Source: Flavobacteriales bacterium (GTDB taxonomy: Bacteria; Bacteroidota; Bacteroidia; UBA10329). Taken from it: 34,015 nucleotides of DNA. The notes under the pieces were generated by a model. The model saw only the letters and a program-made list of their open reading frames with translations, had not been told where the DNA came from and did no database searches. The stretch is from positions 1 to 34,015 of the forward strand of contig JAIPBJ010000031.1 of the NCBI GenBank assembly GCA_021739625.1. The letters are read 5' to 3'. The position numbers were made by a program, and so were the translations under genes. Shown piece by piece: positions 5,201 through 34,015 of this stretch (position 1 is the first letter of the stretch; every line of letters starts with the position of its first letter).

Positions 5201-8200
5201 AGGAGGAACAGCACCCTATATATATCAGTGGTTCCCTGGCGGTCAGACCACTGAGGATATCACCAACCTGCCTGAGGGCGATTATTCCGTAGTTGTCACT
5301 GATGCCAATGGATGCACATCGAGCCAAATAGTCCTCGGGGGGTCATTCGCAGGTGGAACCCTCGCACTTCCTGATGGCAGTGGAGTGTCTTACAGCACGA
5401 CAGTCGGAATCACTGGATTCCCCGCCAATTCGACCATTACATCAGCCACCGACCTTCAGGATGTGTGCATCAACATGGAGCACTCCTATCTCGGTGATCT
5501 GCAACTGCGCCTCATCTGCCCTAATGGACAATCGGTGATTCTGAAGGAGTATCCGGGCGGGACTGGAACCTATTTGGGCGCAGCGAACGATGCCGGGGCC
5601 AACGGAATACCGGGCACGGGGGCAGACTACTGTTTCTCGGCCTCTGCCACTTGGGGAACCCTGTTGCAGGAGAACGCGCTGGGCAACTGGGTGACCGCTG
5701 GCAATGCGCCCAACAACTCCATGACACCGGGCACCTATAGCCCATTCCAATCATTCAACAACTTTATCGGTTGCCCACTCAATGGAACTTGGACCATTCA
5801 GGTCACGGACAATCTCGGCATAGACGATGGATTCATCTTCGGATGGGATCTGACCTTCGGTGGCTCGGGGGCCAACGACTCGCTCGCTACAGTGAATGAG
5901 CCTACCCCTATTCAGATCAGTTCAACTGTCACAGATGCTTCGTGCGGAGTGTGCGATGGAAGTGTCACTGTTTCTGCTTCAAACGGTCTGGCCCCTTATT
6001 CCTATCTGTGGAACACTGGGGCAACAACCGCCACGCTCAACAACATCTGTGCAGGTGTCTATCAGGTGCAGGTCACTGATGCCAATGGTTGCACCAATGA
6101 ATTCTTTGTTCCTGTCGACAACATCGCAGGTCCAACTGCTGGAAATCCGGTTATCACCGATGCCACCTGTTTCGGTGGATGTGACGGTGCTGCAACACTC
6201 AGTCCGGTGGGAGGAACAGCGCCCTACACCTATCAATGGGTGCCTGGTGGACAGAGTACGAACAGTGTTTCCGGTCTATGCACAGGAACCTATTTCGTTC
6301 AGATAAGAGATGCTGCAAGTTGCATCTATACCGAGACAGTGACCATCGGTTCGCCTGCCCAGATACAGATCGGACAGACAGTGACCAATTCTGGCTGCGG
6401 GCTATGTGATGGTGCCATCACCCTGACCCCGATCACAGGTGTTGCACCATACACCTATGACTGGTCTCCGGCAGTTGCAGGCAACGTGCCTGACGCCACA
6501 GGCCTATGTGCCGGTGTTTACAACATCACTGTCACCGATGCCACAGGCTGCTCCGAACCGGTAACTGTACTGCTCAACGATTTCCCATCGGCAACCCTGT
6601 TCATGTCTGCCACCGACCCGGGCTGCAACAACGGCTGTGATGGAACCGCAACGGTCGCCACATTCGGTGGAACGGCACCGTTCTTCTTCGTCTGGGACGA
6701 CCCGCTCACTCAGACCAACGCAACTTCCATCGACCTCTGCACCGGGCTTTATACCGTTACGGTGACCGATGCGGACGGATGTGTAGCGGTCGGTCAGGTC
6801 ACACTTGACAATCCAGCTCCCATCGGTCTGTCCCTGCTCATCATTGACAATGGCACCTGTGCGGGCAACTGCGATGGCTCCATCACAGTTATTCCTTCAG
6901 GTGGAACCATCCCATTCACCTATCTGTGGGATGATTCGAACGGTCAGACCTCGGCCACTGCCGTGAATCTGTGTGCAGGCATCTATTCGGTAACCGTCAC
7001 TGATGCCAATGGATGTACCGATGTGGTTACTGGAACGGTCAACAATCCGGTCGGACTTACAGCTACGGTTGTCGGGACCGATGCGAATTGCAATGGTATA
7101 TGTGATGGAACGGCAACGGTCACCGTTCAGGGCGGAACCGCCCCATTCACCTATCTGTGGGATGACCCGGCTGCCCAAACAACGGCAGTTGCCACAGCAC
7201 TTTGCGCAGGCACGTACAGCGCGACTGTGACCGATGCCAATAACTGCTCTTTCACAGTGTCAATAACGATTGACGAACCTGATCTCATTGCCATCACTTT
7301 CTCAAATGTGATCAACCTGCAGTGTGACGGGGTGTGTGCCGGACAGGCCACAGCCAACATTTCGGGAGGAGTTGGTCCATACAGTGTTGTGTGGAATGAT
7401 GCATTGGCGCAGACCACGCAGACTGCCACTGGCCTTTGCGCAAGCAGCTACACCATCACAGTGACTGATGCGAATGGTTGCGTTCAGACCGCCACGGTGG
7501 TGATCACCGGACCCGGTGGGCTCACCTCATCGGTCACATCACAGGTCAATGCCACGTGCAACGGTGATTGCAATGCTACGGCAACCGTCACCGCAACCGG
7601 TGGCACGGCCCCGTACTCCTATCAATGGAACGACCCTGCCAGCCAGACAGGACAGACCGCGACCGGACTTTGTGCAGGGATTTATACCGTAACGGTCACG
7701 GATGACAACGGCTGTGTGTCCGCTACCACTGTCACCATTGCACAGCCAGGTGTGCTTAACGCATCTACCACTGCCAATGACCCTGACTGCTATGGTATCT
7801 GTGATGGTACTTCCACAGCCTTCACCACCGGAGGAACATTCCCATACTCCTATCTTTGGAATGATCCCAATGGTCAGACGACCATTACCTCAGTAGGTCT
7901 CTGCCCCGGACCATACAGCGTCACGGTCACTGATGCGAATGGATGTGTGGACGTGGCATCGGTCAACATTTTCCAACCCACACAGATTATTGCCAATAGC
8001 AACGTGGTCAATGCCACATGCGGTCAATGCAACGGTCAGGCATCAGTGTCGCCTACCGGAGGAGTTCAGCCTTATACCTACCTGTGGGGTGATGGCCAGA
8101 CCACAGCGACTGTTACCGGTCTTTGCCCTGGGGTTTACAATGTGGATGTGATAGACGCATTCGGATGTGTGTCCAATTTCATCATACCGGTGAACAATGA

Positions 8201-11200
8201 TGGAGGTGCCACCAGTGCAACTATCAATACCACAGGAGCCACCTGCTTTGGCAACTGTGATGGTTCGGCATCTGTTTCAAACGTGGTCGGTGGTGTTGCT
8301 CCATATACCTATCTCTGGGTTCCCGGAGGACAGACCGCGGCATCGGTCACCGGACTTTGCGCAGGCGCTTACAATGTGCAGGTTATCGATGACCTCGGCT
8401 GCATTTTCACCCAGCAGGTGGTCATTGCCCAACCCGCCCAAATAGTTCCCAATTATGTGTCAACCCCAGCCGCTTGTGGCAATGCTGATGGGACCATCAC
8501 GGTGAACCCCACGGGTGGCGATGGTGGCCCTTACACCTACCTGTGGGTGCCGGTTGTTTCCGCTACCAACACTGCTACCGGGCTTGCCTCCGGTGTTTAC
8601 ACAGTGACCATCACCGATGGAAGCGGATGCACCGCGACCACAGTGATTCCTGTAAACAACATGGATGGCCCGAACGTGACCGCCTCTGCAACTCCAGCAA
8701 ATTGCAATGGGGTGTGCGATGGAACGGCCACAGTGACGATCACTGGCGGCACTGCTCCCTATACGGTGCTTTGGAACGACCCTGCAGGTCAGACCACCAA
8801 CACGGCCACGGCACTATGCGCAGGTCAGTACAGTGTCACTGTCACAGATGCGAACGGCTGTGTCAGCGTGCGTCAGGTCACTGTCACCGAACCGACTCAG
8901 CTTTCTTTCAGTCTGCCCATCATTTCCGATGCGCAGTGCAACTCGGCCTGCGATGGCCAGATCACCGTGGTCACTTCTGGCGGAACCCTTCCTTATACAG
9001 TGGTGTGGTCTCCTGCTGGTGGCAACCTTCCAACTGCAACTGGACTTTGCGCAGGAACCTACACTGCCCTGGTGACCGATGCCAACGGATGTACAGCTTC
9101 ATTGCAGGCCATCGTAGGCGAACCGGACACTTTGGTCACGGCTGTCACGCCTGTCGATGCTTCGTGCTTCGGTGTCTGTGATGGTGAGGCCACGGCAGTT
9201 CCTACTGGGGGCACGGCCCCGTACACTTACCAATGGAACGACCCGGCCAACACCACGACCAATCAGGTGACGGGACTGTGCGCAGGAACCTACATCTGCA
9301 TTGTGACCGATGCCAATGGGTGTAGCGACACGGCCACTGTCATCATCAGCGAACCTGCCGCCATTGTCATCACACCGACTGCACAGGGCACCTCATGCTT
9401 TGGAGACTGTGATGGCGAGGCCTATGCGAGTGTGACAGGAGGATCGGCACCCTACACTTACCAATGGAACGATCCGGCACTTACGGCCAACGACACGGTG
9501 ACGGGCCTATGTGCCGGCATCTACAACATCATCGTGACGGATGACAACGGATGTACCGCCACTGTTGCGGTCATCATCACCGAACCCGATCCTTTGATTG
9601 CGTCAGGCCAAGGGGTGGACGCCTCCTGCCCGGGAGTTTGCGATGGCTCGGCCACGGCACTCGTGCAGGGTGGAACCGGCCCGTACACTTACCTGTGGGA
9701 TGACCCCAATGCCCAGACAACGGTTACTGCGACCGGTCTTTGTGCCGGTACCTACAACGTGACCGTGACCGATGCAAACGGCTGTTCGGATGTGACCAGC
9801 GTGACTATCAATGAGCCTGCCGCATTGGATGTGAATGTGACTGTAGTGGATGCAAGTTGCAACGGTGTGTGTGACGGAGAAGCGTCTGCAACCGTGAGTG
9901 GAGGCTCTGCCCCATACACACTCCTGTGGTCAAACGGGTCTTCAACGAATCCTGTCACCGGGCTTTGCGTAGGTTCATACACGCTGCTGGTGACCGATGC
10001 GAATGGCTGCACCGAAACAGTCTCCTTCAATGTGGGTGAACCCGATGCCATCATCATTTCCACTTCAACGCTCGATGCCTCCTGCTTCGGAACGTGTGAC
10101 GGTGAGGCTTATGCCTCCGCCACCGGTGGTTCAGGAGTGTTCGCCTTCGTTTGGAGCGACCTGAACACCACGGCCAACGATACGGTGACAGCTCTCTGTG
10201 CCGGATCTTACACGGTGACCGTTACTGATGACACCGGTTGCTCGGCCACTGCCCAGGTCATCATCAACCAGCCTTTGGACATCACCATCACAGCTTACAC
10301 ACAGGGTGTAAGCTGCTTCGGTGACTGCAATGGTCAGGCCTTTGCGTCAGCCAGCGGTGGCACAGGCCCCTACACCTATCAGTGGGACGATGTCAACCTT
10401 ACCGCCAACGACACGGTCATTGACCTTTGTCCCGGCATCTATAATGTGATTGTGACCGATGCCAATGGTTGCACATCTACAACCGCGGTCATCATCACCG
10501 AGCCGCTGCCGCTGCAACTTGTCGGTGTGCCAACGAACATTTCGTGCGGGGGTCAGTGCAATGGGGTGGCCACGGTGCTGGTTCAAGGTGGAACCCCACA
10601 GTACACCTATCAGTGGAACGACCCGCAGCAACAGACCGGAGCTTCTGCAACAGGTCTATGCGCAGGTACTTTCACGGTGATTGTCACTGATGACAACGGA
10701 TGTATCGACAGTGTCGATGTCACCATCACCGAGCCGCCTGTTCTCGATGTCACCGTCACAGTGGTGAACCCGAGCTGTGGTGGCGTGTGTGACGGAGAGG
10801 CTTCTGTCACTATTAACGGTGGTACGGGCCCGTACACCATCCTCTGGTCAGATTTCAGTTCAGGAAGCTCGATCATCGGTCTGTGCGCAGGCAACTACTC
10901 TGTGATCGTGGTGGATGCCAACATGTGTTCCGATTCTGTGAACTTCATCCTTACCGAGCCGCCCGTGCTCAACGCCAATATCACAGCCACTACTCAGGTT
11001 CTGTGTTCAGGAAGCTGCACGGGTGCAGCAACGGTGGAGGGTTCGGGAGGAACTCCGCCATACAGTTATCAGTGGTCGAACGGACAGACCACTCCGACCG
11101 CTACCAACCTCTGCGTTGGGCAGTATTCGGTAATCATCACCGATGACATAGGTTGCACCGCCACGGCCATCGTCACCATCAATGACGACAATGCGTTGGC

Positions 11201-27702: not shown

Positions 27703-28227
27703 ATGAAACAGGCGGCACCATTTCAGCAAACAGAACCCGAACGACTCTTAGACTACATGGTCATGGAAAGAAAGATCAAGATTTTCGTGGTTGAGGACTC
27801 CGACATCTATCGCGAGCTCATCTCCAGTTTCATCTACACGATGGACAGGGGCTATCTCTCGCCTCAGGAAAGCAATTTCGATATCCGTTCCTTCAGCACG
27901 GGCGAGCACTGCATCGGTGAGATGGGCGAGAGGCCCGACATCGTGGTGCTGGACTATCATCTGGACGGCTACAAGAACCACCCCGACTGCATGGACGGGC
28001 TGGATACCTTGAAGTTGATCAAGCATTACAGCCCAAGCACCCACGTAGTGGTCATCACCGCTGACCGCGACACCACCCTTGCCAACGAGTTCATTGTCAA
28101 CGGAGCATCTGATTACGTTTCCAAGGAGCCTGGCGTGCGTGAGAAGTTGCAGCATTCTGTGGCAAGGCTCATCCGCATCGTCAGGAGGGAGCTCAAGGAA
28201 TATAGGGATCTCGGAAACGCTGAGTGA
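27703..28227 (+). CDS. Stand-alone receiver-domain response regulator
   Basis: The 174-residue product begins at 27703, as indicated by the leader; ATGs at 27757 and 27763 are alternative starts that would begin at the receiver fold. The receiver covers about residues 24-150: acidic E31/D32, phospho-acceptor D84 in V-V-L-D-Y-H-L-D-G, a T before A-D in V-I-T-A-D-R, and K in S-K-E-P. A short charged helix follows (R-I-V-R-R-E-L-K-E-Y-R). No DNA-binding or enzymatic output domain is present, so it probably acts by protein contact or as a phosphate sink or relay. A cognate kinase could be one of the three encoded at 29275-33619; this is inferred from proximity only. Confidence 0.88.
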   Translation: MKQAAPFQQTEPERLLDYMVMERKIKIFVVEDSDIYRELISSFIYTMDRGYLSPQESNFDIRSFSTGEHCIGEMGERPDIVVLDYHLDGYKNHPDCMDGLDTLKLIKHYSPSTHVVVITADRDTTLANEFIVNGASDYVSKEPGVREKLQHSVARLIRIVRRELKEYRDLGNAE

Positions 28228-28955: not shown

Positions 28956-28987
28956 CCCAGGCAGGGACTGCAATCGAATAAAAAACC

Positions 28988-29176
28988 ATGACTGTCCTTC
29001 CCAAAACCACGACTGTTCTTCCCAAAACCACGACCGTTCTTCCCAATACCACGACTGTTCTTCCCAAAACCACGACTGTTTTTGCCAAGAACACAGGTGT
29101 TTTTGCCAAAACTATGGGTGTGCTTGCCAAGACCACTGGTGTTCTTCCCAAGACCACGACTGTCATGGCCGAGAAC
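28988..29176 (+). repeat. Nine tandem 21-bp repeats (seven codons, TTVLPKT-like), possible small ORF to 29287
   Basis: Nine units of exactly 21 bp start at 28988. Units 2 (29009) and 4 (29051) are identical (ACGACTGTTCTTCCCAAA plus ACC), while units 5-9 are increasingly changed. Because 21 is a multiple of three, the frame from ATG 28988 to the stop at 29287 stays open and would encode a 99-residue protein of T-T-V-L-P-K-T repeats. It would end where the kinase begins (GTG 29284). The minus strand is also open across the repeats, which follows from periodicity and does not prove coding. The 319-nt interval 28956-29274 has no other gene. A TGGCAC motif lies at 29178. Confidence 0.8.
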
Positions 29177-29274: not shown

Positions 29275-30846
29275 TTGGAACAGGTGATAGATTTCTTCAG
29301 ACAATTGCTGCGATCGGACCAGTTCATGCCCCGATGGGTGTGTGGCGAATGGACTCCTGTTCACGGCTGGCTCTACATCATATCAGATGTGGTCATATTT
29401 CTCGCCTACATGGTCATTCCGTTCGCGATGGTCTATTTTGTCAGAAAAAGGTGGGATGACCTGCCCTTCCGCCATGTGTTCTGGCTTTTCATCGCTTTCA
29501 TTGCGCTCTGCGGCACATCGCATCTGGTCGATGCCATCATCTTCTATGTGCCGCTTTACCGTTTCAATGCGCTGGTGCTGGTGGCCACTGCCATCGTGTC
29601 GGTGATCACGGTGGGCAGTATGTTGAAGGTGATTCCGGAAGCGTTGAGATACAAGAGTCCATCAGATTTACAGAGCATCGTGGCAGAGAAGACGGCCGAG
29701 CTGGAACATCAGAAGACCGTGCTATCTGAAGTGAACGGCCGACTGGAGCGCGAAATACAGGAGAACCTCCGCTCGCAGCGCGACATGGCAAGACTTGCGG
29801 CCATCGTCCGTGCCTCGGATGACGCCATTGTTTCCCTCACCACCGAAGGCATCATCACCAGTTGGAACGATGCTGCCGTGCGCATGTACGGCTACACGGC
29901 CGAAGAGGCCATCGGATGCAGCATTGCCATGCTCAGCCTTGAAGATGACCGCTTGGAATTGGAACAGGCACTTGCCAAACTGCGCGAGGGCCAGTCCATA
30001 GACCACTTCGAGACCCCGCGAGTGAGGAAGGACGGAGGTCTTATCCATGTTTCGGTCACCTATTCCCCGCTTCGCGATGAGCAAGGGGAAGTGACCGGGA
30101 TCTCAGGCATCGGGCGCGACATCACTGATGAAAGAAGGGCCGCAGACGAACAGAAGCACCTGATGCGCGAATTGGAACGCGCCAACAAGGAGCTGGAGGA
30201 CTTCGCCTACATCACCTCACACGACCTGAAGGCTCCGCTGCGGGCCATCGGTTCCCTCACCGACTGGATACAGAGCGACAACCACGAGAAGCTGGGCGAT
30301 GAGGGCAAGCAGTATCTCAAGCTGCTCAAGAACCGCGTCCACAGGATGAACGAGCTCATTGAAGGCATCCTCGGATATTCGCGGGTGGGCCGGGCAAAGG
30401 GAAGGTCTGAGCAGGTGGACATGAACACCCTCATGCAGGAAGTGATGGAGCTGGTCCATGTTCCAGACCACATCAAAGTGACCGTTCAGGAAGGACTGCC
30501 CGCGCTGATGACACAGAAGACCTACCCTGTGCAGGTGTTCGAGAACCTCATCAGCAATGCTGTCAAATACTGCGACAAGGAGGTCGGAACGGTGGAGGTC
30601 GGTGTGGATGAATTGCCACGGTTCTGGAAATTCCATGTCAGAGACAATGGTGTGGGCATCAATCCGCTCTATCACGAGCGCATCTTTGAGATATTCCAAA
30701 CCTTGAAGTCGCGCGATGAGGTGGAGGGAACGGGCATCGGTCTGACCATCGTCAAGAAAATTGTTACCCATGTAGGTGGCGAAATTTGGTTGGAATCGGA
30801 ACCGGGACAGGGCAGCACATTCTATTTCACCTGGCCCAAGCACTGA
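29275..30846 (+). CDS. Sensor histidine kinase with ethylene-receptor-like membrane domain and PAS domain
   Basis: The 523-residue protein begins at TTG 29275 (GTG 29284 and ATG 29326 also possible). Residues about 32-116 form three membrane helices closely resembling the ethylene-binding domain of plant ETR1. I-S-D38, A-Y45, I48-P49, I76 and C79-G-T-S-H83 match ETR1 D25, Y32, I35, P36, I62, C65 and H69, with the same spacing apart from one inserted residue. C65 and H69 bind copper(I) in ETR1. A linker helix follows, then a PAS domain (about 177-290), a HisKA region with phospho-acceptor H316 (S-H-D-L-K-A-P-L-R-A) and an ATPase domain (E-N-L-I-S-N-A-V-K-Y; D-N-G-V-G-I; G-T-G-I-G-L-T-I-V). It likely senses a small ligand such as ethylene, or copper or redox state. 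Its stop overlaps the next kinase by 1 nt. Confidence 0.93.
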   Translation: MEQVIDFFRQLLRSDQFMPRWVCGEWTPVHGWLYIISDVVIFLAYMVIPFAMVYFVRKRWDDLPFRHVFWLFIAFIALCGTSHLVDAIIFYVPLYRFNALVLVATAIVSVITVGSMLKVIPEALRYKSPSDLQSIVAEKTAELEHQKTVLSEVNGRLEREIQENLRSQRDMARLAAIVRASDDAIVSLTTEGIITSWNDAAVRMYGYTAEEAIGCSIAMLSLEDDRLELEQALAKLREGQSIDHFETPRVRKDGGLIHVSVTYSPLRDEQGEVTGISGIGRDITDERRAADEQKHLMRELERANKELEDFAYITSHDLKAPLRAIGSLTDWIQSDNHEKLGDEGKQYLKLLKNRVHRMNELIEGILGYSRVGRAKGRSEQVDMNTLMQEVMELVHVPDHIKVTVQEGLPALMTQKTYPVQVFENLISNAVKYCDKEVGTVEVGVDELPRFWKFHVRDNGVGINPLYHERIFEIFQTLKSRDEVEGTGIGLTIVKKIVTHVGGEIWLESEPGQGSTFYFTWPKH

Positions 30847-32345
30847 TGGAGCATTTTGAAAAACATCCCGAACGCGAGGAGCTTGCTTCAGAGGTGGTGC
30901 GGCAGAAGCTGCACACGGCTGAGAGCTACTCGGCCATTGTGCGTATGGCTGTGGTCATCATCAACTCGGTGGCGTTCGTTTTCCTGATCGACAAGGCGCA
31001 GACCATCCCGTGGCTTGCCTGGCCGATCATGGTCTCATCGCTCATTTACAGCATCTATGTCGCCATCTGGGAACCGTTCAAAAAGTATCCGATCAAACGC
31101 ACCAGCTACCTCACTTCAGCTGCCGATTCGATCTTCATACTGCTGTGGATCATCGCCACAGGCATGTCAGGCTCGCCCTTCTTTCTGCTGTGGTACATCT
31201 CCATCATCGCCTTCGCGCAGCGGTTCACCTTCAGGGCCACGCTGCTCACATCGGTGGCCTACGCTGCAGCCTATATGACCGTGCTGAGGATAGATATCGG
31301 CTACATCACCTCGGCCGACATGTTCCTCCGCGTGCTTTATATCCCAGTTGCAGGAGTGTTGGCGGCCTTCTTCTCGCGCGAGTTCGAGGCGCAGGTGGGC
31401 GACAAGCTGCGGGCCATGCGGTCCGAGGACAAGGCCCTGAGTGCGAAACGCAAGCAGAAGGAACTGCTTACGGAACTTCAGGCCATCCGTGACGGGCTGG
31501 AGCATACCGTGCAGGAGCGCACCTTTGAACTGCGTTCGCTCAACACCGACCTGAGGCGCGAAATGACCGAAAAGGAGGCTGCTCAGCGCGCACAGCGGCA
31601 GATGGTGGAAAGCCTCAGCCGCATCAATGCCGAGCTGGAGAGTTTCGCCTACGTCACCTCGCACGACCTCAAGACCCCCCTGCGCGGCATCGCCACCATA
31701 GCCGACTGGCTGCTGGAGGACTATGCCGACCGCCTTGACGAAGCAGGTCGCGACAACCTCATATTGATGAAGAAACGCGTGCAGCGGATGAACGACCTCA
31801 TTGACGGAATCCTGCGCTATTCCCGCGCGGGCCGTGCCAGCGATGAGACCGAACCCATAGATGTCGTTGCCCTCGTCCATGACTGCATCAGCGTGATGCA
31901 CGTACCGGAAACCACGGCCATCACCGTGGGCGGTGAATTCCCGACCATCACGGCCAACCGCACACTCCTGCTTCAGGTGATCGAGAACCTGCTGGGCAAT
32001 GCGGTGAAATATGCCGACCCGGTGCAAGGCGATGTGCGCATCACAGGCACCGCATCGGCCGAGGGATGGGAGATCGCGGTGTTCAACAATGGCCCGGGCA
32101 TTCCGATTGAGTACCACGACCGCATCTTCGAGATATTCCAGACGCTGCACAACGGAGATGATGCGCAGAGCACGGGCGTTGGACTCACCATCGTGAAGAA
32201 GGTGATCGCTGCGTGGGGCGGTTCCGTCAGGGTGGATTCGGACGGGACCAACGGTGGCACCACATTCACATTCACCATTCCGGGCAGCATGCTGTTGAAA
32301 GACGATTCAAAGACCGATGGAAAGCGACCCAAAGCGAAGGTGTAA
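30846..32345 (+). CDS. Sensor histidine kinase with six-helix membrane sensor
   Basis: The 499-residue product starts at ATG 30846 within the previous stop codon (TGATG), so the two kinases are translationally coupled. Six hydrophobic segments lie between about residues 30 and 178 with short loops; no named sensor family was recognised (MASE-like modules look similar). A coiled-coil linker (about 185-260) leads to the HisKA site H273 (S-H-D-L-K-T-P-L-R-G) and the ATPase domain (N box E-N-L-L-G-N-A-V-K-Y; F-N-N-G-P-G-I; G-V-G-L-T-I-V-K-K). The kinase core is very like those of the flanking kinases, which points to duplication with exchange of the sensor part. The C-terminal tail after the ATPase fold is Lys/Asp-rich. 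Confidence 0.93.
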   Translation: MEHFEKHPEREELASEVVRQKLHTAESYSAIVRMAVVIINSVAFVFLIDKAQTIPWLAWPIMVSSLIYSIYVAIWEPFKKYPIKRTSYLTSAADSIFILLWIIATGMSGSPFFLLWYISIIAFAQRFTFRATLLTSVAYAAAYMTVLRIDIGYITSADMFLRVLYIPVAGVLAAFFSREFEAQVGDKLRAMRSEDKALSAKRKQKELLTELQAIRDGLEHTVQERTFELRSLNTDLRREMTEKEAAQRAQRQMVESLSRINAELESFAYVTSHDLKTPLRGIATIADWLLEDYADRLDEAGRDNLILMKKRVQRMNDLIDGILRYSRAGRASDETEPIDVVALVHDCISVMHVPETTAITVGGEFPTITANRTLLLQVIENLLGNAVKYADPVQGDVRITGTASAEGWEIAVFNNGPGIPIEYHDRIFEIFQTLHNGDDAQSTGVGLTIVKKVIAAWGGSVRVDSDGTNGGTTFTFTIPGSMLLKDDSKTDGKRPKAKV

Positions 32346-32422: not shown

Positions 32423-33619
32423 ATGACGAAGCACGATGAACAACTCCTGACCACGCTCAAACCCTCGTTCACAGAGCGGGAACTGACGCAGATGCAGTGC
32501 TATTTTGACGTGACCACCAAGCACAACTCTGCGATGCGCGCCTACTTCGAGGAGAAATTGGCGGTCCATCCCGTCTATGGCCCACTCATGGCCATGCAGA
32601 CCTATGAACAGCGACAGGCCCGCAACGCATATACGGACGAGCTGACCCGCAAGGCACTGTTCGAGGGCGAGTGGGAACCCCTCACCAATGACCTTATCAT
32701 GCAAGGCATCACATACGCCAAGGTGGGCATGGAGTTCAATGCGTGGTATGAGGTGGTGGCCATGGTAAAGGATTATCTCCTGCCCGTGATCGTGACCGAA
32801 TTCGAGGGCGACCTCCAAAAGCTGCTGGACGCGCTGGCAGGGCTGGGACGCTACATGGATTTTGCCCTACAGGCCATTGCAGAGTCCTACTTCATTGAGA
32901 AACGTGCCATCATTGAAGAGCAACGGGCAAGACAGGAAGTGCTGATCCGCGACCTGGAGAGCTTCGCTTATGTGGTGTCGCACGACTTGAAATCACCGCT
33001 CCGGGGCATCTCCAAGCTGGCCGAGTGGCTCGTGGCCGACTATCACGACAAGCTGGACGAGGAGGGACGAACAAGCCTGCGCCTGCTCACATCGCGTGTG
33101 CAGCGGATGGACAGCCTCATTGACGGCATTCTCGAATACTCCCGCCTTGGCCGTCAGGAGAGGTCAATGACCAATGTGGATCTGAACGAACTGCTGCGGG
33201 ACATCATCGATATGCATTCCGACAACGGGCATGTGCGCATCGCGGTCAACGGAACCATGCCTTCCATCCGCAACGACAGGGCCAAGCTGGGGCAGGTGTT
33301 CTCCAACCTCATCAGCAACGCCATCAAACACAACGACAAGGAGAAGATCGACATCGAAGTGAACTGCGAGGACCGTGGCGACCGCTTCGCGTTCAGCATC
33401 ACGGACAACGGCCCGGGCATCGACCCCGAATATCACGAGCGGGTGTTCGGAATGTTTCAGACCCTGCAGCCCAAGGACGAGCGTGAGAGCACGGGCATCG
33501 GGCTGCCCATCGTCAAGCGCATCGTGGAGGACAATGGTGGCAATATCTCCCTCAATTCAGAATCGGGCAGAGGGGCAACCTTTACTTTCACCATCCCGAA
33601 ACAGACTCCGGAGAATTGA
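32423..33619 (+). CDS. Soluble histidine kinase with globin-like sensor domain
   Basis: The 398-residue protein has no membrane segment. Residues about 15-165 are all-helical and resemble globin-coupled sensor domains: I-T-Y-A-K-V-G-M-E-F-N-A-W-Y lines up with the F-helix pattern I-x-H-V-x-I-G-L-x-P-x-W-Y, and L-G-R-Y-M-D-F-A-L-Q with the final helix. The proximal haem ligand expected at His is Tyr98, so the domain may bind haem through Tyr, bind another cofactor, or be haem-free. The kinase part has H187 (S-H-D-L-K-S-P-L-R-G), N box S-N-L-I-S-N-A-I-K-H, D-N-G-P-G-I and G-I-G-L-P-I-V-K-R. It has its own predicted promoter and is followed 44 nt later by a receiver gene, its likely phospho-partner. 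Confidence 0.88.
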   Translation: MTKHDEQLLTTLKPSFTERELTQMQCYFDVTTKHNSAMRAYFEEKLAVHPVYGPLMAMQTYEQRQARNAYTDELTRKALFEGEWEPLTNDLIMQGITYAKVGMEFNAWYEVVAMVKDYLLPVIVTEFEGDLQKLLDALAGLGRYMDFALQAIAESYFIEKRAIIEEQRARQEVLIRDLESFAYVVSHDLKSPLRGISKLAEWLVADYHDKLDEEGRTSLRLLTSRVQRMDSLIDGILEYSRLGRQERSMTNVDLNELLRDIIDMHSDNGHVRIAVNGTMPSIRNDRAKLGQVFSNLISNAIKHNDKEKIDIEVNCEDRGDRFAFSITDNGPGIDPEYHERVFGMFQTLQPKDERESTGIGLPIVKRIVEDNGGNISLNSESGRGATFTFTIPKQTPEN

Positions 33620-33663: not shown

Positions 33664-34015
33664 ATGAAAAACTACGAACCTGTCCTGTTGGTGGAAGATG
33701 ATGTGGTGGATGCCATGACAGTGAGCCGCTCATTCCGCGAGCTGAGCATCCTGAATGAGGTGATACACCGCATCAACGGTGTGGAGGCGCTCGAATACCT
33801 GAAAGACACCGACCGGCTGCCATGCCTCATCCTGCTCGACATCAACATGCCCAAGATGAACGGCATCGAGTTCCTCGAAAGGGTGAAGCGGTCTGAGGGG
33901 CATCGCAGGATTCCCGTGGTGGTGCTCACCACCAGCAATGACGATCGCGACAAGTTGGAGGCCTACAACCTCGGAGTGGCCGGCTACATGCTCAAGCCTG
34001 TGGACTACCGTCAGT
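33664..34015 (+). CDS. CheY/Rcp1-like response regulator, 3' end missing
   Basis: The first 117 residues of a single receiver domain are visible; the gene runs off the window. The start at ATG 33664 follows AAAACTGATACA. E11, D12 and D13 form the acidic pocket, D59 is the phospho-acceptor (L-L-D-I-N-M-P-K-M-N-G), T89/T90 and K111 (L-K-P-V-D) complete the active site. The I-N-G-V-E-A-L-E-Y-L segment is typical of the Rcp1-like receivers that pair with phytochrome-type kinases. Placed 44 nt after the globin-type kinase, it is the probable shared target of the three upstream kinases. Whether an output domain follows cannot be seen. Confidence 0.92.
   Translation, partial: MKNYEPVLLVEDDVVDAMTVSRSFRELSILNEVIHRINGVEALEYLKDTDRLPCLILLDINMPKMNGIEFLERVKRSEGHRRIPVVVLTTSNDDRDKLEAYNLGVAGYMLKPVDYRQ

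Follow-up and report, generated by a model that had tools for sequence, protein, structure and literature searches.

Work on ethylene perception has centred on plants and on a few cyanobacteria and Proteobacteria. The 34,015-nucleotide stretch analysed here (the window) encodes a histidine kinase whose N-terminal membrane domain carries the seven residues that the Arabidopsis receptor ETR1 needs for ethylene binding. Does this kinase belong to the ethylene-receptor family, and is ethylene what it senses?

Architecture and family of the kinase

The ORF at 29275–30846 on the forward strand encodes a sensor histidine kinase of 523 amino acids. Pfam resolves it, within one ORF and in this order, into an ETR1_N ethylene-receptor-type membrane domain (PF25487; residues 30–125, 29362–29649), a strongly scoring PAS domain (residues 173–283, 29791–30123) and a kinase core comprising HisKA and HATPase_c (30193–30840), the pair of domains that marks it as a two-component histidine kinase. 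This is the layout of membrane domain, PAS and kinase that the initial annotation had described. The GAF domain of plant-subfamily ethylene receptors finds no Pfam match in the window kinase, the PAS domain standing in its place. The TTG start is plausible, since two relatives from the same genus (L003 and L004) have a Met codon at the matching site, their proteins starting MEQVIDFF and MEQMIDFF, and AGGG lies just 5' of the TTG.

Against the Pfam ETR1_N model, which has a cut-off of 27 bits, the kinase scores 104.4 bits (E 4e-30), the strong match that had been set as a check on the assignment. A profile search of the genome returns the domain at 29275–30846 as the sole match (108 bits), and none of 14 control genomes has one. 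In an alignment of 114 rows, D38, Y45, I48, P49, I76, C79 and H83 (29386–29523, forward strand) share columns with ETR1 D25, Y32, I35, P36, I62, C65 and H69; the residue offset is 13 and then 14, exactly as first proposed. C79 (29509–29511) and H83 (29521–29523) occupy the Cu(I)-ligand positions. Across 112 related domains the Tyr, Pro, I76, Cys and His columns are invariant and the I48 column has a single exception. The Asp column is looser, with Asp in 98 domains, Asn in six, Ser in six, Glu in one and a gap in one.

The numbering of the ETR1 row of this alignment (AtETR1) agrees with the published residue numbers. The Pfam ETR1_N model and AzoEtr1, encoded on an Azospirillum plasmid (L112), served as independent checks on that row. 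AzoEtr1 comes out with D35, C75, H79, K98 and a length of 525 amino acids; this full agreement with the published description (PMC11819568) validates the alignment.

An AlphaFold2 model of the domain, built from 41 sequences (pLDDT 94.5), predicts three transmembrane helices at residues 28–58, 66–89 and 95–125. We found no sequence relatives of the domain in the PDB and no PDB fold match to the model at E<=0.001, in agreement with the ETR1 membrane domain structure being so far unsolved (PMC13012798). The initial annotation had named a better fit to an unrelated three-helix family as the result that would overturn it, and no such fit appeared. Given the profile E value, the lack of a competing PDB fold and a tree that places the domain within the ETR1_N family, a chance likeness of an unrelated three-helix membrane domain is vanishingly improbable. 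Profile, residues, predicted structure and tree together make the kinase almost certainly an ETR1_N family member.

Arabidopsis ETR1 shares with it the seven binding residues, three transmembrane helices and a histidine kinase, and 37 of 116 aligned residues are identical. ETR1 carries GAF and receiver domains, whereas the window encodes a PAS domain and a separate regulator; Lys91 of ETR1 is Leu here. AzoEtr1 of Azospirillum brasilense (PMC11819568) likewise combines ETR1_N and the same seven residues with a histidine-kinase output, and the N-terminal regions of the two are about 35% identical; it has a PHGxC N-terminus and keeps Lys98, while the window kinase has PRWxCGxWTxxHGWLY and Leu102. 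Synechocystis SynEtr1 (slr1212) and other cyanobacterial Etr proteins (PMC6682694) are also bacterial kinases that bear an ethylene-binding domain and work with a response regulator, and SynEtr1 senses light as well. Four cyanobacterial sequences (L113, L114, L116 and L117) entered the comparison directly, and SynEtr1 is likened by description.

The ligand and the lost lysine

In the mechanism that we propose, helix 2 would hold Cu(I) through C79 and H83 with helix 1 assisting, and ethylene or a similar small olefin would bind the copper within the membrane. The resulting helix rearrangement would change kinase activity, and the phosphoryl group would pass to the response regulator encoded at 33664. 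The domain probably binds copper. That the gene encodes an ethylene-receptor-family membrane sensor kinase working by this copper and ethylene mechanism seems to us reasonably likely, and for ethylene as the physiological ligand we would put the chances at even or slightly above. It is fair to suppose that ethylene is sensed, because a member of the family is known to bind it: the first 130 residues of AzoEtr1 are reported to bind ethylene in a radioligand assay (PMC11819568).

The initial annotation spoke of a full set of receptor residues. This holds for the seven discussed above and fails for an eighth: ETR1 K91 (K98 in AzoEtr1), proposed to pair with D25 through a salt bridge and to share in output (PMC11819568, PMC13012798), corresponds to Leu102 in the window kinase (29578–29580), so that the Asp has lost its partner. 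Leu is also found in two relatives from the same genus. A basic residue is common at this position (Lys or Arg in 94 of 114 domains), although it is not counted as defining for ETR1_N membership. Asp and Lys/Arg occur together in 92 of the first 114 domains, and in that set all 12 domains with Asn or Ser at the Asp position do without the base (six S/L, four N/L and two N/D). A later N/L case (L146) brings the non-viral Asn/Ser domains lacking the base to 13 out of 13; two viral domains break the pattern by pairing N with R. Loss of the charge pair was recorded at L007, L018, L033, L042, L045, L048, L076, L088, L099 and L146; the window kinase keeps the Asp only.

In the tree the window domain (Asp and Leu) sits in a branch with support 90, not starred, in which every member lacks the base, and D-to-N/S variants are present in the branch nearest to it. 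It looks as if the base was lost first and the acid afterwards, which we offer as a lead and not as a result. In a phylogenetically corrected test of joint Asp/Lys loss nearly all random pairings are concordant, but there are only two well-supported pairs, too few for significance, and for this reason the plain Fisher value is not used as proof of the association. The missing Lys91 equivalent is a genuine caveat for ethylene sensing: with Leu where the Asp should find its partner, the window kinase may well differ in affinity or coupling from ETR1 or AzoEtr1. The Leu at this position, together with the D-to-N/S variants in the nearest branch, also leaves room for the idea that the window branch may no longer bind ethylene with high affinity.

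Could Cu(I) be bound via C79 and H83 in a kinase that physiologically responds to copper level, to redox state, to oxygen or to some small ligand other than ethylene? Such a sensor would fit the contrast between invariant copper-ligand positions and an Asp and Lys/Arg partner that vary in the window branch, and exchange of this Asp for Asn costs about 100-fold in ethylene affinity, according to a review (PMC13012798). However, the window protein retains Asp38 and the other six residues, and AzoEtr1, in which all seven are present, binds ethylene (PMC11819568), and we think a non-ethylene signal unlikely, if well worth keeping in mind. Less probable still is a degenerate receptor that has kept the fold and lost ligand coupling, with the PAS domain as the working sensor. 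The lost K91, the several branch relatives that also lack the Asp and the strong PAS score behind the membrane domain would all fit it, but over 112 domains the Tyr, Pro, Ile, Cys and His columns show little or no change, which argues for continued selection on the site. Copper-dependent ethylene sensing stays our preferred reading.

Gene neighbourhood and split receptors

The ETR kinase heads a same-strand run of three kinases followed by a CheY-like regulator. The second kinase, HK2 (30846–32345, forward strand, Pfam), has its own hydrophobic membrane N-terminus, and its ATG overlaps the stop codon of the ETR kinase by 1 nt (TGATG, 30844–30848). The third, HK3 (32423–33619, forward strand, Pfam), begins with an all-helical, soluble domain of ~165 amino acids (32423–32923) that has no Pfam match. 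A globin-like sensor, suspected there from the sequence, found no support: Pfam gave no match, the PDB only a weak local one, and an alignment-free fold was unreliable at a pLDDT of 54. The run closes with a CheY/Rcp1-like single-domain response regulator (33664–34015, forward strand) that is cut by the contig end. The two neighbouring kinases had been called paralogues, and so they are: the three kinase cores are 44–45% identical. Since the cores are alike but the sensor parts differ, the arrangement suggests several inputs feeding one regulator, and HK2 and HK3 may deliver other signals to the protein encoded at 33664.

On the 5' side, a second single-receiver response regulator lies at 27703–28227, with a 196-amino-acid ORF between it and the ETR kinase. 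Just 5' of the kinase is a tandem array of 8.7 copies of the 21-bp unit AAAACCACGACTGTTCTTCCC (28982–29163, no strand assigned), which has no Rfam match, and a promoter scan gave nothing above shuffled sequences. ACC deaminase, the one ethylene gene looked for, does not exceed the cut-off in the genome, a point against the ethylene reading; the best match reaches 53 of 392 bits, and such matches occur in six control genomes as well.

How widespread is this domain? Ethylene receptors beyond plants and cyanobacteria have already been reported in Proteobacteria, and ETR1_N is common in parts of the Bacteroidota, so the window kinase is a genuine ethylene-receptor-type kinase of this phylum, one of many, and less unusual than its first description implied. 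ETR1_N exceeds the cut-off in four of 59 genomes in a search of relatives (the window genome and two congeners included), and in 21 of 395 sampled Bacteroidota species (~5%); within a single order, 56 of 291 genomes (19%) have it. A scan of genome contigs yields 80 loci, nearly all from Bacteroidota (Mucilaginibacter, Dyadobacter, Hymenobacter, Spirosoma, Algoriphagus, Fulvivirga and others). Most of the relatives that we fetched share the N-terminus RWxCGxWxxxHGW, where other domains have PHGxC; as the scan patterns favour the former subtype, its share is not a census. In the tree this subtype is a single starred clade (87 rows, support 98), which also holds a few contigs from Myxococcota, Planctomycetota and Ignavibacteria and one labelled as a cyanobacterium.

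The output side of these proteins varies even between close relatives. In the congeners L003 and L004 the ETR domain is joined to a different kinase core, which lacks PAS and has another HisKA type, and L028, from the same genus, has it on a non-PAS kinase core followed by a regulator. Two kinase architectures for one ETR domain within a genus would be a sign of domain shuffling. Among fused relatives with enough flanking sequence, a CheY-like regulator lies directly behind the kinase in 30 of 58, an arrangement comparable to the order ETR kinase, HK2, HK3, regulator in the window.

At 17 loci ETR1_N is a separate protein of 159–170 amino acids, counted from the domain start (L040, L041, L049, L056, L057, L058, L062, L066, L074, L079, L081, L089, L090, L096 and L108, also L060 and L092). 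All 14 of these with enough flank show the same gene order: ETR protein, adjoining membrane kinase, CheY-like regulator. The seventeen form one starred clade with support 99. Two further free-standing copies (L052 and L069) have no kinase behind them and three more (L131, L137 and L138) are followed by one; a CheY-like regulator comes third behind 14 of the 16 free-standing genes with enough flank. The free-standing proteins, from Algoriphagus, Aquiflexum, Marivirga, Cyclobacterium and others, resemble the window kinase in their RWxCG...HGW subtype and in their linkage to kinase and regulator, but here the domain is a protein of its own, ~160 amino acids long, with the kinase as the next gene, whereas in the window it is fused. 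We considered the membrane domain of HK2 as a relative of that of the split-receptor kinases and found no similarity. The literature searched, in which the main reviews were partly covered, holds no description of a split receptor.

Phage copies and wider uses of the domain

A Foldseek comparison of the window model with viral structures gives one significant match, and tblastn against phage sequences picks out eight records with the domain, from the Maribacter phages Molly and Colly. The Molly and Colly copies are most likely the same protein, 289 amino acids long in both. The gene (Molly_1 gp065; L175, 5893–6762; also L176) lies 4 nt upstream of an endolysin gene (Amidase_3), and its product scores 60.9 bits against ETR1_N. 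Scans of viral contigs add further copies, many of them free-standing and ~120–175 amino acids long (among them L162, 5905–6420; L168, 5995–6369; L181, 3808–4176; L182, 5977–6363; and L193, 5983–6405). The copies tested score 56–73 bits against ETR1_N, and the free-standing proteins tested have no match in PHROGs. Viral contigs yielded no close relatives of the full window kinase.

Several of these genes have lysis genes for neighbours. A GH108 endolysin gene is close in L162 and in L165, L168, L169 and L171 (called by Pfam in L162 and L168, by evident sequence similarity in the other three). A phage tail lysozyme and an Rz-spanin-like ORF lie near the gene in L181, a GH25 endolysin in L182 and L183, and a weak phage-lysozyme match in L193. 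In L157, L173 and L189 the domain stands beside portal, tail or terminase genes, and L164, L195 and L196 have no link to an endolysin or structural gene. In L189 the phage portal ORF (6952–9636), which lies close to a free-standing ETR1_N gene, resembles the anti-CBASS protein Acb1 in its C-terminal part as well (113 bits). Altogether an endolysin, of one chemistry or another, is nearby in six of about 12 phage-like free-standing lineages. Lysis genes often adjoin structural genes in phages, and the binomial figures for this count assume a background rate in place of a position-matched one, so that we take the association of ETR1_N with endolysins as a suggestion and no more. Among the phage sequences aligned, the first Cys never changes, nor do the Tyr, Cys and His equivalent to ETR1 Y32, C65 and H69; the Asp and Pro positions vary. 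It is possible that the phage proteins are holin-like or regulate lysis. The literature searched makes no mention of phage ETR1_N proteins.

The free-standing and phage copies suggest that the domain may serve other roles too. In the broadest version, to which we give tentative credence at most, ETR1_N would be a general small copper-site membrane module with at least three uses: fused to a kinase, as in the window; in Bacteroidota, as a stand-alone subunit acting on a membrane kinase encoded by its own gene; and, in phage lysis modules, as a stand-alone protein that is holin-like or regulates lysis. The window kinase itself might then sense a signal other than ethylene.

The window kinase is a known kind of protein with a safe family assignment, and the split and phage forms are the surprising parts. 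A review (PMC13012798) lists as open questions by what route a change at the copper site spreads across the helices, and how the kinase receives its signal from the membrane domain. The large Bacteroidota clade, with an N-terminal motif of its own, cases in which the Asp-Lys pair has been lost in nature and a receptor that is naturally split, is ready material for both. Compared with full receptors, a free-standing ETR1_N protein may also be simpler to purify. Should the phage copies act in lysis, a fold of ethylene receptors would prove to have a second, unforeseen function.
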